Below, in pieces: positions 43,877 through 51,682 of a DNA stretch of 64,000 bases. Source of the DNA: Gemmatimonadaceae bacterium (lineage in GTDB: Bacteria; Gemmatimonadota; Gemmatimonadetes; Gemmatimonadales; Gemmatimonadaceae); contig JADZAN010000001.1 of the NCBI GenBank assembly GCA_020852815.1, positions 124,001 to 188,000 of the forward strand. Reading direction: 5' to 3'. Each line of letters starts with the position of its first letter. Position 1 is the first letter of the stretch. The notes below the pieces were generated by a model. It had not been told where the DNA came from and ran no database searches. It saw nothing but the letters and a program-made list of their open reading frames with translations. The translations under genes and the position numbers were made by a program.

Positions 43877-45582
43877 GCCGTCCCTCCCCGCAGGGCGCGG
43901 TTCACCGCGTTGCGCACCAGGATCTCCTTGTCGGTCGCCGCGCGACGCAACACCGCGATTGCATCCGTCGTCCCGACCCGCCCCAGCGCCATTGCCGCGC
44001 AGGCGCGCAGCTCCGGGTCCTCGCGCCGGCCAAAGAAGCTCTTGCTGTTGAGGAGCCCATCGAGCAGCGCCACCCCGCCGTCGCCGCACATCGCGCCAAA
44101 GGCCTCGAACAGCGCCATCTTCTCCGTGAGGTCGGCGTCGGACAGCCGCTTCCCCTTGATCGCCGCCTCGACCTTCGGGAGCGCGGGACGATGCACGCGC
44201 TGCGCGAACGCCTTGGCCGTCGCCACCCGCACCTCGCGCGAACTGTCGTCGATGCAGCGCTCCAGCTGCTGCAACGCCCCGGGAGTCCCGATCTCCGCCA
44301 GCGCCTGCACCGCCGCCAGCCGCACGTCGTTGTCGGGTTGCGTCATCAGGCGCGAGAGCGCCGGCACCGCCGCCGCCGCCTTCATCGCCCCCGAGCGGCG
44401 AATCGCCTCCAACGCCACGTCGCGCTCCGGCGCGCCAATCAACCGCACCAGCTCACCGGTGTGCGCCGCCGCCAGCCGCTGCGCCGCCGACTCGAGCTGC
44501 GTCCGCACCCTCGGCGTCTGCAATCGTCCCAGCCACGAGAAGATCGTCCCCAGCGCCGAGACGCGGAGTTGGTCGAACAGCTCGTTCAATTCCGACTGGT
44601 CGGCCAGGTCGGTGCGCTCGTCCAGCGACTGCAGGAGTTGCGACAACGCCTCCGGTTCGCTCATCCGGTTGGGGAGCGAGAGCAGTGTCTCGCGCTGCGG
44701 CGGCGTGAGGTCGCGTGCGCGGTTGGCGGCGATGTTCACCTCGCGCAGCAGGTGCGCCACCGTACGCAGCTGTCCCGCCGTGAGCAGGTGCACGAGCAGG
44801 TTGTCGAGGACGCCGACGATCTCGTCGCGAATCGCCGGATCCACCTGCACCTCGAACACGTCGAGGAGGATGTTGACGACGTTGCCGCGCAGCTCCGACG
44901 CGTACTCGGTCGACACCGCGTCCTTCAGGTACTCGATCTCGCGCTCGTCGAGGAAATACAGCGTGCTGTCGAAGTCATCGAGGTTCACCACGCCCGACGG
45001 GAGGATCGTCTCCTGCGGCGGCTCCTGGATCTGCTTCGGATCGACGAGGCGGTCCTGCTTCGCGAGGTCGGACGCATCGAGCGGCGCCACGCCCTCCAGC
45101 GCCACGTCCACGTAGCGGTACCGCACGAACGAGAACTCCTGCTCCCACAGCAGCGTCAGGAGGTCGTCCTCGTCAGGCGACGCCTTGCGCACCCGGACGA
45201 TGATGTCGATCAGCTGCACCAGCTCCTGCTGCTCCACCTCGCGCAGCAGGCGCAACTCGCGAATGCCGTCCTTGTACAGGATCCACGGCAGCGCGTCGGT
45301 GGTCTTGTCCGGCTCGTTGATGACCGTCTGCCCTTCCCAGCGCAGTTGTGTGTCGGTCACCTCGATGACCAGCTCCTCGCAATGCGCCCAGATGGGGGCG
45401 AACGAGGCACGCGCATTGTCGAGCGCGCGCAGGAAGGTCGGGTTGTTGGGGAGGTACAGCTGCTGCGCGCGCACCGCACGACCGAACATGCGGAGCATCT
45501 CCTCCACGAGCGCCAACGGAAACGGCGGCTCGGGGCGATCCTCCGCATGCTGGTTCGGGGTGCTCGCCGACGGCAGGGTCAC
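43873..45582 (-). CDS. HEAT-repeat protein
   Basis: 569 residues. The N-terminal module (about 25-135, [13 protein letters not shown]...) looks homologous to the one in the HD-GYP protein. A linker follows, and the C-terminal half is HEAT/PBS-lyase-like helical repeats ([27 protein letters not shown] is one repeat; [19 protein letters not shown] another). No catalytic motif is seen, so it is probably a scaffold or partner of the HD-GYP protein. The GTG start overlaps the trpB stop (GTGA). Confidence 0.78.
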
Positions 45583-46997: not shown

Positions 46998-47702
46998 TCA
47001 TTCGTGCGACGGTTTCCGGTCGCGCGCCTCGCGAACGGCGTCCGCGAAGGCGCGCATGCGCAGCGGGTCCTTCACCCCCGGCGCCGATTCCACGCCGGAC
47101 GAGACGTCGACCACATCCGGGGCCAGGAGCGCGATGGCCCGGGCGACATTGTCCGCGCGAAGACCTCCGGCAAGGATAATCGATCGCCCGTCGCGCAGGG
47201 GTTCCACCACCTCACGCGTCGCCGCCCAGTCGAAGCTGCGTCCTGTCCCGCCGAGCATCCCGTCCACCTTGGCGTCGAGGAGGACGCCATCGCCCTCCGC
47301 CGCCGCGGCGAGCTGCCGCCCGTCGATACCCGACTCGCCCACGTGAAGCACCATCCAGATGCGCGCGCGTGTGCGGCGCCTGAGCGCGGGCACGAGTTCT
47401 CCGTCGTCGCCCCCGTGCAGCTGGATCACGTCGAGCCCCAGGCGATCGACGGTATCGGCGATGGCGTCGGCGCTCATCCCGGCAAAGACCCCGACGCGCG
47501 CCGGCCGCGGAAGACGCTGCGAACCCGGCGTGTCCTCGACGGCGCGCAGCAGCGACGCCGCGCCCTCGACCGTCAGCTGCCGTGCACTCGGCGCAAAGAT
47601 GAAGCCGAGGAATCCGGCGCCTAACGCGGCGGCGAGCACGGCGTCCTCGGCACGCGTGAGCCCGCAGAACTTGAGCGCGACGGCGGAATGGTGCGATGCC
47701 AC
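46998..47702 (-). CDS. trpF: Phosphoribosylanthranilate isomerase
   Basis: 234 residues. The catalytic cysteine is in LKFCGLTRAEDAV near the N-terminus; GFIFAPSAR, VIQLHGGDD and the DVSSGVESAPGVKD phosphate-binding end are diagnostic. GTG 47702 (reading VASHHSAVALKFCG) is taken as the start, since the frame further upstream is antisense-like. It lies between trpC (14 bases away) and trpB. Confidence 0.93.
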   Translation of the reverse strand: MASHHSAVALKFCGLTRAEDAVLAAALGAGFLGFIFAPSARQLTVEGAASLLRAVEDTPGSQRLPRPARVGVFAGMSADAIADTVDRLGLDVIQLHGGDDGELVPALRRRTRARIWMVLHVGESGIDGRQLAAAAEGDGVLLDAKVDGMLGGTGRSFDWAATREVVEPLRDGRSIILAGGLRADNVARAIALLAPDVVDVSSGVESAPGVKDPLRMRAFADAVREARDRKPSHE

Positions 47703-47716
47703 GGCGTGCCCTCGCG

Positions 47717-48538
47717 CTACGCGCCGGCGACGCGCGCCACGCCGGCCAGCGCGCGCATTGCGGCTGCCGGGTCGCTCGACGCCGACAGCGCGGAGCCGAT
47801 GAGCACGGCGTCGGCGCCCAGTGCCGCGGCGCGCACCACGTCCGGCACCGCCGTCATCCCACTCTCCGCCACCCGCACCCGGTCGCGCGGTATCGACGGC
47901 AGCAGGCGTTCCGTCACCGATTGCTCGATCACCAGCGTCTCGAGGTCGCGCGCGTTCACGCCGATCGCGGGGGCTCGTGTCGCCACCGCACGCGCCAGCT
48001 CCGCCTCGCTCCGCACCTCCACCAGCGGCTCGATCCCGAGGTCCAGTGCGAGGTCGACCAGCCCCTCCAGTCGCCCAGGTCCCAGCGCCCGCGCAATGAA
48101 GAGGATCGCCGACGCGCCGAGGGCGCGCGCCTCCCACACCTGCGCCTCGTCTACGTGGAAGTCCTTCTTGAGGAGCGGAATGCTCACGCGGTCGCGTACC
48201 TCGACAAGGTCACGCTCGCTGCCGCCAAACTCCGACGGTTCGGTGAGCACGGAGAGGGCGCGCGCCCCCGCCTTCTCGTACAACGCCCCCCGGTCACCGG
48301 CGCGAATCTCGGCATTGATCTCCCCTTTCGACGGCGAACGTCGCTTGATCTCGGCGATCACGGCAATCGTTTCGCCCGCTCGTAGCGCCTTGGCGAAGGA
48401 GGTGACCGGTGGGGCGTCGCGCACCTGCGCCTTCAGGTCGTCGAGGCGGAGCCGAAGCGCGGACGAGCGCTCGGCCGCGGCTGCGGAAAGTCGCCCCAGC
48501 GGGCCAGACGGGGGCGTCCAGGAGAGATTCTCTTGCAC
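47717..48538 (-). CDS. trpC: Indole-3-glycerol phosphate synthase
   Basis: 273 residues. AEIKRRSPSKGEI (catalytic Lys) near 70, LLKKDFHVDEAQVWEARALGA near 130, IGVNARDLET near 195 and VAESGM near 225 are the family motifs. GTG 48538 is the likely start (VQENLSW). It is the first gene of the trp cluster and is divergent from lexA; the lexA -35 element and one candidate LexA site touch its start codon. Confidence 0.94.
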   Translation of the reverse strand: MQENLSWTPPSGPLGRLSAAAAERSSALRLRLDDLKAQVRDAPPVTSFAKALRAGETIAVIAEIKRRSPSKGEINAEIRAGDRGALYEKAGARALSVLTEPSEFGGSERDLVEVRDRVSIPLLKKDFHVDEAQVWEARALGASAILFIARALGPGRLEGLVDLALDLGIEPLVEVRSEAELARAVATRAPAIGVNARDLETLVIEQSVTERLLPSIPRDRVRVAESGMTAVPDVVRAAALGADAVLIGSALSASSDPAAAMRALAGVARVAGA

Positions 48539-48561
48539 TTCGGGGCTTGTTCGGCTAGAGT
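48533..48561 (+). promoter_or_regulatory. Sigma-70-type promoter for lexA
   Basis: TTGCAC (48533-48538) and TAGAGT (48556-48561) are separated by 17 bases. The predicted transcription start near 48568 leaves a leader of about 94 bases. Confidence 0.5.
48538..48552 (+). promoter_or_regulatory. Candidate LexA operator 1 (CTTC-N7-GTTC)
   Basis: CTTC (48538-48541), seven bases, GTTC (48549-48552), each followed by GG. It lies in the lexA promoter spacer and at the trpC start codon. Alphaproteobacterial LexA binds GTTC-N7-GTTC; this copy has one mismatch. Confidence 0.55.
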
Positions 48562-48563
48562 TT

Positions 48564-48578
48564 CTTCGGCAGTTGTTC
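48564..48578 (+). promoter_or_regulatory. Candidate LexA operator 2 (CTTC-N7-GTTC)
   Basis: CTTC (48564-48567), seven bases, GTTC (48575-48578). It is a near copy of operator 1 placed 26 bases downstream, overlapping the predicted lexA transcription start. Confidence 0.55.
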
Positions 48579-48661
48579 GGGGATCTCCATCGACCGCCCG
48601 TCCGGCCCTTGCCCGGGGGCTGGTTCTCGATCCTCGACGCACCCTCGCGCGGAGTCCGCAC

Positions 48662-49270
48662 ATGCCGCTCACCAAACGGCAACGAGAGATCCTGACCTAC
48701 CTGCAGGAGTACGCCGACGACCGGGGCTACGCCCCTTCGTTCGAGGAGATCGCCGAGCACTTCAACTATAACTCGCTGGCCACGGTGCACGAGCACCTCA
48801 CCAACCTCGAACGCAAGGGGTACATCCGGCGGAGTTACAACGAGAGCCGGGCCATCGAGATCCTCCCGTCGGAACTCTTTGCGCGCGCGGTCGACCTCCC
48901 GCTCCTGGGCACCGTCGCCGCCGGCGCCCCCATCGAGGCGTACGCGCACAACGAGTCGCTTGCCGTTCCACAGGACCTGGTCACCCGAAACGGGAACCAC
49001 TACGTCCTCAAGGTGCGCGGGAACTCGATGATCGACGAGCAAATCCGTGACGGCGACTTTGTCATCGTCAACGAGCGCCGCAGCGCGGACAACGGCGAGA
49101 TGGTCATCGCCCTCCTCAACAACACCGGCGCCACCTGCAAGAAGTTCTACCGCGAACGCGACGGGCGCATTCGGCTGCAGCCAGCCAACGAGACGCTCAC
49201 GCCGATGTACGTGCACGAGAACGACATCGCCATCCAGGGGGTCGTCGTCGGCGTCATTCGGCGCTACTAG
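48662..49270 (+). CDS. lexA: LexA repressor (SOS response)
   Basis: 202 residues. An N-terminal winged helix-turn-helix (LTKRQREILTYLQEYADDRG, SFEEIAEHFNYNSLATVHEHL) precedes the S24 autoprotease. The self-cleavage Ala-Gly is in VAAGAP near residue 86, the catalytic Ser in RGNSMIDEQI near 121 and the Lys in TCKKFYRE near 159. ATG 48662 is chosen because the frame upstream covers promoter and operator candidates. It would repress DNA-repair genes and itself. Confidence 0.96.
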   Translation: MPLTKRQREILTYLQEYADDRGYAPSFEEIAEHFNYNSLATVHEHLTNLERKGYIRRSYNESRAIEILPSELFARAVDLPLLGTVAAGAPIEAYAHNESLAVPQDLVTRNGNHYVLKVRGNSMIDEQIRDGDFVIVNERRSADNGEMVIALLNNTGATCKKFYRERDGRIRLQPANETLTPMYVHENDIAIQGVVVGVIRRY

Positions 49271-49344: not shown

Positions 49345-50379
49345 TCAGGGTTCGGGCGCGTACGCGCGGCGCAGCCGCTCCAGCGCGTCCAGTCCCACGG
49401 CGTCGCGCACCCCCTGTTTTGCGCGCGCCACTCCCTCCGCGTAGTCGCTCACCTGCCCCGAGACGTAGAGCGCGGCCGCCGCGTTGAGGACCACCGCGGC
49501 GGTGGCGGCTGGAGTCCCCTGGCCTCCCAACACGTCGCGCACGATGCGCGCGTTGTCGGCGGGGCCGCCGCCGGCGAGTGCGGCGGGGTCAAACGCCGGG
49601 TAGCCAAAGTCCGACGGCTTCACTTCCCACTCGCGAGTCGTTCCGGCGCGCACCTCGACCACGCGCGTCGGGCCCAGCGGTGAGAACTCGTCCATCCCCG
49701 GCTCGCCGTGCACCACGAGGGCGTGCGTGGTCCCCAGCGCGGCGAGCGCCCCCGCCAGGAGAGGGATGCGCCGAACCTCCGCCACCCCCAGCACCTGGCG
49801 CCCCGCCATTGCCGGGTTGGCCAGCGGCCCCACGATGTTCATGACTGTCGGCACCGCCAGCTCGCGGCGCACCGGTCCCACGTGGCGCATTGCCGGATGC
49901 ATGCTCGGGGCGAACATGAAGACGATCCCCGCGTCGTGCAGCGAGCGCTCCATGACCGCCGGCGCGGCGTCCAGCGGGACCCCCATTGCCTCCAGGACGT
50001 CGGCACTTCCGCACTGCGAGGTGAACGAGCGGTTTCCGTGCTTCGCCACGCGAACCCCGAGCCCGGCGGCGAGCAGGGCGGCGGCGGTGGAGATGTTGAA
50101 CGTGGTGACCGTTCCACCCCCGGTGCCGCAGGTGTCCACCAGTGCGGCGGGATCGCTGGCGCTCAGGCGGACCATCGCCTGGCGCATCGCGCGGGCGGCC
50201 CCCGCCACCTCCTGGGCCGTTTCCCCCTTCACGCGAAGCCCCATGAGGAGTGCGGCCACCTGCGCCGGCGTGGCCTCGCCCCGCATGATGGTCCCGAACG
50301 CCTCCGCCGAATCGTCCTCGGCGAGCGACTCGCCGAAGGCCAGCCGGCGAATCGCCTGCTGCAGCGTGCTACTCGTCAC
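49345..50379 (-). CDS. trpD: Anthranilate phosphoribosyltransferase
   Basis: 344 residues. DTCGTGGGTVTTFNIST (PRPP-binding) near 82, KHGNRSFTSQCGSADVLEAMG near 112 and VMNIVGPLANPA near 180 are diagnostic. The start is GTG 50379, overlapping the end of the GAF-domain gene by 11 bases. It is physically separated from the other trp genes by lexA; trpE and trpG are not in the window. Confidence 0.95.
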   Translation of the reverse strand: MTSSTLQQAIRRLAFGESLAEDDSAEAFGTIMRGEATPAQVAALLMGLRVKGETAQEVAGAARAMRQAMVRLSASDPAALVDTCGTGGGTVTTFNISTAAALLAAGLGVRVAKHGNRSFTSQCGSADVLEAMGVPLDAAPAVMERSLHDAGIVFMFAPSMHPAMRHVGPVRRELAVPTVMNIVGPLANPAMAGRQVLGVAEVRRIPLLAGALAALGTTHALVVHGEPGMDEFSPLGPTRVVEVRAGTTREWEVKPSDFGYPAFDPAALAGGGPADNARIVRDVLGGQGTPAATAAVVLNAAAALYVSGQVSDYAEGVARAKQGVRDAVGLDALERLRRAYAPEP

Positions 50380-51682
50380 CGATCTCTCCCAGCAGCCGCT
50401 CCGGGAGCTCGGCATTGGCGGCGATGAGCGCGATGACCAGCGCCAGCAGCGACACGCGTTCGACGTCTTCCTCCACGAAGACGCCGCGCTTGGCGCGATT
50501 GGTCAGGTTCACGACGCCGATCAGTTCATCCCGGTAGATGAGCGGGAACGAGATGAACGACCCGGTGGTGAGGTACTGGTCGCGAAGGAGCGGGTGGCGG
50601 TCGGCTTCCGCGGCATCCTGCACCAGCAGCGGTTCGCGCGACATGGCGACGATGCCCGCGACACCCTTGCCGTTGGGAATGCGCTGGCCGAGGACGATGT
50701 TGGGCGCCAGCCCGCGCGCTGCGGCGAGGTAGAGCGTATCCGGCTCGGGGGCGCGCAGCATGAGCGAGCAGCGTTGCGCCTGCATGTCATCGCCCACCAG
50801 GGCGAGGAGTCCGTCCACCAGGGCGCGCGGCGCATCCTTGCTCGTGTTGTCGATGCGCAGCGACCGTTCGATGAGGTACAGCGTGCGCGTCTTCTGTCGC
50901 AGCGATTCGTTGCGGCGGTGCAGCTCGATGTGCGCCTGCTCCAGCTGTGCGACGGCCGCCGTGAGCTGGTGCTCCAGCGACGACGACTTGCGCGTTGCGC
51001 GCCGCCCCTCTTCCTGCGCCGCGGCGATGTCGCGCTCCAGGTGCAAGAGGCGTTCGGCGTCGGCGGCGTTGACCTGCGAGGCGGCGCCGCGCGCCTTCCC
51101 CAGCTCGCCCTCGAGCACGCCGAGCTTGCGGATGTACTCGCCGTGCACGCGCTGCGTCACGTCCTCGAGCGTGCGCACCGCTTCGTCACGCGCCTCGCGC
51201 TCGCCAAAGCGCGCGTACGCCAGCTCGAACAGGGCGACGCACGGGGCGAAGCGTTCGCTGGTTCGCGTGCCGAACATGCGCCGCTGTTCGTACAGTCCCA
51301 GCATCCCTGACAGTTCGCCGTCTGTCGTTAGGCCGCGCAGCGAGAGGATGCCGCCGTCGGCAAACGGGGTGAGGCCGAGGAGCCGGGCGTACTCGACCGA
51401 CCGGTCGCCGAGGTCGACGAACTGCCCGCCGTTTGCCACCATGGCGCGCGCGGCCGGGGGGAGGTGGTCGATGGTGGTATCGACGGTGGCGCGGACCACG
51501 CGCTCCTGCACGGGGGTCAGCCGCTCACGCAGCATTTCCCGGCGCCCTTCGTAGCGGAACACGGAGACGAGCGCCGACCGATCGGCCTCGGCGAGCGCCT
51601 CACCCAGCGCCACGAGCGCCGCGTCCAGGTCGGGGGCGACACTCAGCGCGTGCGCCAGCGAGGGAAGGCTCTTGATCGACAT
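50369..51682 (-). CDS. GAF-domain signalling protein with central coiled coil
   Basis: About 437 residues. An N-terminal GAF-like region (about 1-170) is followed by a long coiled coil (about 170-270, EAVRTLEDVTQRV to LRQKTRTLYLIERSL). The C-terminal GAF domain (about 275-430) has GKGVAGIVAMSREPLLVQD and ELIGVVNLTN. No kinase, cyclase or phosphodiesterase output is attached, so it would signal through a partner. It overlaps trpD. ATG 51682 is chosen; ATG 51700 is possible. Confidence 0.78.
   Translation of the reverse strand: MSIKSLPSLAHALSVAPDLDAALVALGEALAEADRSALVSVFRYEGRREMLRERLTPVQERVVRATVDTTIDHLPPAARAMVANGGQFVDLGDRSVEYARLLGLTPFADGGILSLRGLTTDGELSGMLGLYEQRRMFGTRTSERFAPCVALFELAYARFGEREARDEAVRTLEDVTQRVHGEYIRKLGVLEGELGKARGAASQVNAADAERLLHLERDIAAAQEEGRRATRKSSSLEHQLTAAVAQLEQAHIELHRRNESLRQKTRTLYLIERSLRIDNTSKDAPRALVDGLLALVGDDMQAQRCSLMLRAPEPDTLYLAAARGLAPNIVLGQRIPNGKGVAGIVAMSREPLLVQDAAEADRHPLLRDQYLTTGSFISFPLIYRDELIGVVNLTNRAKRGVFVEEDVERVSLLALVIALIAANAELPERLLGEIGDE

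Follow-up and report, generated by a model that had tools for sequence, protein, structure and literature searches.

The window analysed here, a stretch of 64,000 nucleotides from a Gemmatimonadaceae genome, contains between positions 45579 and 50415 a lexA gene that is embedded between trpD and trpC-trpF-trpB and located on the strand opposite to them. The features surrounding the lexA promoter are the following:

46998..47702, minus strand: trpF-like gene, downstream of trpC (open reading frame and sequence as read)
47717..48538, minus strand: trpC, divergent from lexA, its start codon GTG in contact with operator 1 (E 2e-69 to TrpC equivalog models, whose strict cut-offs it does not reach)
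48533..48538, plus strand: lexA -35 element TTGCAC, whose CAC is the trpC GTG start on the other strand; its TTG is invariant in 81 promoters
48539..48554, plus strand: candidate LexA operator 1, TTCGG-GGCTTG-TTCGG, filling the -35/-10 spacer
48555..48560, plus strand: lexA -10 element TAGAGT (consensus in the family TANCGT, with the T, the A and the last T conserved to 99% or more)
48565..48580, plus strand: candidate LexA operator 2, TTCGG-CAGTTG-TTCGG, downstream of the -10 element
48662..49270, plus strand: lexA, 202 aa (TIGR00498, 201.8 bits against a cut-off of 110.95)
49345..50415, minus strand: trpD, convergent with lexA (open reading frame)

The -10 and -35 elements of lexA were assigned solely from conservation, and a strict consensus promoter scan of the window found no -10/-35 site. 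The first-pass annotation had described two CTTC-N7-GTTC repeats around the lexA -10 element TAGAGT, 26 bp apart and with the first touching the trpC start, and re-reading the letters of the window gave exactly these coordinates: CTTCGGGGCTTGTTCGG occupies 48538-48554 and CTTCGGCAGTTGTTCGG 48564-48580 (offset 26 bp), the two enclose TAGAGT (48555-48560), and the C that opens CTTCGGGGCTTGTTCGG is the complement of base 1 of the trpC start codon, GTG (minus strand, 48538-48536). As a search motif, STTC-N7-GTTC was dropped in favour of TTCGG-N6-TTCGG, since in the window it occurs at chance level (3 copies against 2.73 expected, with 49 of 100 shuffles reaching 3). TTCGG-N6-TTCGG is found twice in the window against 0.09 expected, and 14 times as an exact match in the whole genome against 3 for the reversed pattern. 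The intermediate form STTC-N7-GTTCGG showed little selectivity across the genome (37 against 10 reversed), and a genome search allowing three mismatches was useless (550 against 573 in the control). The repeat signal is thus real, and its informative unit is TTCGG-N6-TTCGG, which far exceeds expectation where STTC-N7-GTTC does not, and not CTTC/GTTC; its best form is TTCGG-N4-T-N-TTCGG, which in five genomes yielded 48 sites against 2 reversed.

Conservation of the two sites was scrutinized in 81 lexA promoters, comprising that of the window and those of LexA relatives in 80 genomes, almost every one of which carries the label Gemmatimonadaceae or Gemmatimonadetes. Both TTCGG-N6-TTCGG sites are present in 80 of the 81, the remaining promoter having a single exact site, and in these 80 the period is always 11 bp and the GG following TTC is retained at both sites, while the flanks drift. 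The fifth spacer base is T in 98% of first and 86% of second sites, and the upstream TTG and downstream TA...T are likewise fixed. The base preceding TTC varies (operator 1: C 91%, T 9% in the first half-site and G 46%, C 34%, A 20% in the second; operator 2: mixed), so that GTTC is not the unit. A direct spacing of 11 is the sole strong spacing (161 pairs), inverted pairs stay near background, and the inverted half-sites of a palindromic box of the Gram-positive or E. coli type were accordingly not found. The two operators are separated by 23-28 or 35-37 bp, two clusters about one helix turn apart, a distribution that would fit two operators needing to stay in phase. Outside the Gemmatimonadaceae the sites recur at lexA in other families of the class (f2 to f8 and f10), mostly at distances of 24-27, with one full site only in f6 and a few other genomes.

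The suggestion that these are SOS boxes of the alphaproteobacterial type holds for the architecture, an 11-bp direct repeat, and fails for the half-site, which is TTCGG and not GTTC. LexA of Caulobacter crescentus (PMC9578287) and of Alphaproteobacteria (PMC8565304) recognizes GTTC-N7-GTTC; the repeat described here has in common with that box its direct orientation, 11-bp period, TTC-containing half-site and location at SOS promoters. It differs in that the half-site is TTCGG, the base before TTC is free (GTTC is not found in both halves, G preceding the second TTC of operator 1 in only 46%), and two operators are present at lexA. The Gram-positive box, CGAAC-N4-GTTCG (PMC9578287), has a similar GTTCG-like half-site but is a palindrome, whereas the half-sites here are in tandem.

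Genes at a distance from lexA were named from profile searches or clear sequence similarity, and many of the relatives' genomes are draft, metagenome-assembled ones. The 14 exact sites in the window's genome include two at lexA and others at imuA, uvrA, ruvB, gyrB and a radical-SAM gene related to Rv2578c/PA0069. Seven of the 14 are located away from recognised SOS genes; the conserved T is missing from six of these seven, and most are probably due to chance. At recA of the window's genome, TTCGTATTTTGTTCGGG precedes the matched protein start by 116 bp, and the repeat is present at a nearly fixed place in 30 of 30 genomes, with no occurrence in reversed promoters or on the other strand. Its left half-site is TTCGT and not TTCGG, probably because the -10 element overlaps the repeat (a TATTTT-like hexamer is found inside it, about 17 bp from a TTGA-like hexamer), which leaves the affinity of LexA for recA uncertain. 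The repeat is located directly upstream of imuA in 14 of 20 cases, with three more solely at the neighbouring radical-SAM gene; dnaE2 is named with imuA-imuB on the assumption of the usual imuA-imuB-dnaE2 cassette. In 24 of 30 genomes (L310-L339) the repeat lies immediately before the single-copy gyrB (reversed control 0), while dnaN promoters carry it in none of 29.

The expectation of the first-pass annotation that the same repeat would precede other SOS genes was therefore borne out at recA, imuA and lexA in the numbers given above, as well as at gyrB, ruvB and the radical-SAM repair gene, with negative controls at zero, and this shared repeat supports its proposal that LexA may use a direct-repeat operator. 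For uvrA, which it had also named, the site was found in only 3 of 28 genomes, belonging to the window's genus and perhaps one more, and uvrA was rejected as a family-wide target. Upstream of uvrA in the window's genome (C21:23302-23329), three tandem half-sites (TCCGG, TTCGG, TTCGG) follow each other at 11-bp intervals.

Genes recurring behind the strict motif in the five genomes are lexA, imuA, gyrB, ruvB, the radical-SAM gene, a radical-SAM gene linked to UDG (TIGR03916) and a protein of about 200 residues; they are mostly repair genes, with Ku found once. The 200-residue protein (L386:561-1151, L366:1552-2166) lies behind a near-perfect site with an adjoining TATAAT/TATAAG, has no matches other than phage families of unknown function (phrog_11717), and is a candidate new SOS gene.

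In the promoters of lexA and the UDG-linked gene, and in several of those of imuA and the radical-SAM gene, the operator occupies the gap between a TTG-type -35 and a TA-type -10 element; operators lie in the spacer or over the -10 element, overlapping the core promoter (with promoter elements assigned from conservation). Such placements fit a repressor and not a promoter element. That TTCGG is itself a core promoter element, read by a dedicated sigma factor, could account for the fixed position of operator 1 between -35 and -10 at lexA and for the similar arrangement at several imuA and radical-SAM promoters, yet it deserves hardly any weight: the second copy at lexA lies downstream of the -10 element at a variable distance from the first (23-28 or 35-37 bp), the -10-like hexamer of recA is found inside the repeat, and the elements around TTCGG are sigma-70-like hexamers.

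The trp context was examined across the relatives. The convergent orientation of trpD places lexA within the trp cluster, on the strand opposite to it, and trpC lies upstream of lexA in 74 of 77 loci and trpD downstream in 72 of 75, with both flanks seen in 69 loci. An opposite-strand gene inside a gene cluster, as in trpD-[lexA]-trpC, has the form of a noncontiguous operon as defined in PMC7154746, and the locus may possibly be one. The GTG with which trpC begins is, in most loci, complementary to the CAC in the lexA -35 element. Because the trpC start lies within this element, trpC transcripts must start in or traverse the operators, so that trp may be affected by the binding of LexA or by transcription of its gene; LexA control of trp, which had also been proposed for this locus, is plausible from this arrangement. 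The contact of operator 1 with the trpC start codon, together with the divergent trpC in 74 of 77 loci, might even suggest that the repeats are conserved for trpC, as a leader or for its regulation, and not for lexA. This is negligibly probable, as the same repeats are located at recA, imuA, gyrB and ruvB, and also at lexA in families with a different upstream sequence, in which no trpC-like stretch is apparent by eye.

The translated LexA has the recognition helix NSLATVHEHL and the features needed for cleavage and catalysis, identified by eye (an Ala-Gly site in VAAGAP, the Ser in GNSM and the Lys in CKKF). We take its helix, S-L-A-T-V-H-E-H, to be close to the Gram-positive STVHGH and unlike that of Alphaproteobacteria. 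A second LexA-like protein, whose recognition helix differs (KSTKTVAEVL), is present in many genomes. The one in the window's genome (C10:4730-5329) has its protease Ser replaced by Ala, and no Ala-Gly site was seen in it; those of other lineages keep both. The promoters of the second gene carry no TTCGG repeat, and its autoregulation via this repeat was rejected.

In the sister class (L340, L343-L346), TTCGC-N6-TTCG(C/T) is found twice upstream of lexA in five of five genomes, the right half of the second site being TTCGC or TTCGT, and the promoters have the form TTGACT-repeat-TATAAT; no such site was seen at recA in this class. The 106 LexA sequences checked from the class all have the helix SLATVHEH(L/I), which in the sister class is S(P/T)ATVHKHL; the changed positions align with residues 40 and 45 of the E. 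coli protein. TTCGC repeats and the TVHKH helix thus change together, which ties the motif to LexA, this covariation being seen in two clades only and hence representing one evolutionary event. It also bears on whether another DNA-damage regulator, for instance a PafBC-like activator or the second LexA-like protein, reads the tandem TTCGG, with this LexA merely one of its targets. Promoter motifs by themselves do not name their binder and the second protein is encoded in many genomes, but we consider this very unlikely, given that the motif and the recognition helix of this LexA itself change together. Moreover, the second lexA promoters are devoid of the site and the protease Ser of their product is Ala in the window's genome, some motif-bearing genomes show one LexA only (e.g. 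G022, with the site at lexA), and the sites lie over core promoters in the manner of repressor sites.

Our preferred explanation, to which we assign a probability of roughly 0.94, is that the two repeats are LexA operators, i.e. the direct-repeat SOS operators of Gemmatimonadota LexA. It draws on the sequence itself, its conservation, its placement in promoters, the set of targets and the joint change of motif and helix in the sister class, and from these we infer binding, repression, RecA-dependent cleavage and induction. A LexA dimer would bind the direct repeat of TTCGG, whose 11-bp period of about one helix turn would put both half-sites on the same face of the DNA. With operator 1 in the -35/-10 space and operator 2 just past the -10 element, bound LexA would block RNA polymerase and repress its own gene. 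The predicted operator also covers the promoters of recA, imuA-imuB(-dnaE2), gyrB, ruvB and the radical-SAM repair gene, and in some genera those of uvrA, Ku and the UDG-linked radical-SAM gene. Upon DNA damage, activated RecA would induce self-cleavage of LexA at the Ala-Gly site, and the target genes would be derepressed. A more far-reaching combination is rather unlikely as a whole: that Gemmatimonadota LexA reads a TTCG(G/C) direct repeat whose last base is set by one or two helix residues (Leu39/Glu44 against Pro or Thr/Lys), that its regulon holds the only DNA gyrase B gene, and that SOS induction and tryptophan synthesis exclude each other because lexA lies antisense in the trp operon and its promoter covers the start of trpC.

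Direct-repeat LexA boxes are already known in Alphaproteobacteria and Balneolaeota; the TTCGG motif is new, and no published Gemmatimonadota LexA box was found in the open-access literature, which leaves most subscription journals outside. In Balneolaeota, the direct-repeat LexA motif TTACACATATTTTWTACATA was found by comparing lexA promoters and its binding confirmed by gel shift, with targets including lexA, recA, translesion polymerases and a radical-SAM protein (PMC7739468). Both cases thus concern a direct-repeat motif derived from lexA promoters of a neglected phylum and similar targets; they differ in half-site and spacing, and in the gel-shift confirmation of the Balneolaeota motif. 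In the Bacteroidetes SOS regulon, parC/parE are under SOS control (PMC8565304), and a type II topoisomerase is likewise under predicted SOS control here, except that the gene is gyrB and the motif a direct repeat.

The results provide one further case of direct-repeat use by LexA, and a clear predicted SOS operator and regulon for a phylum for which no LexA box was found in the literature. The greatest surprises are the appearance of gyrB as a target across the family and a natural switch in specificity, from TTCGG to TTCGC with Glu to Lys, which makes the recognition code of LexA testable. LexA control of gyrB would tie supercoiling and gyrase dosage to DNA damage in these bacteria.
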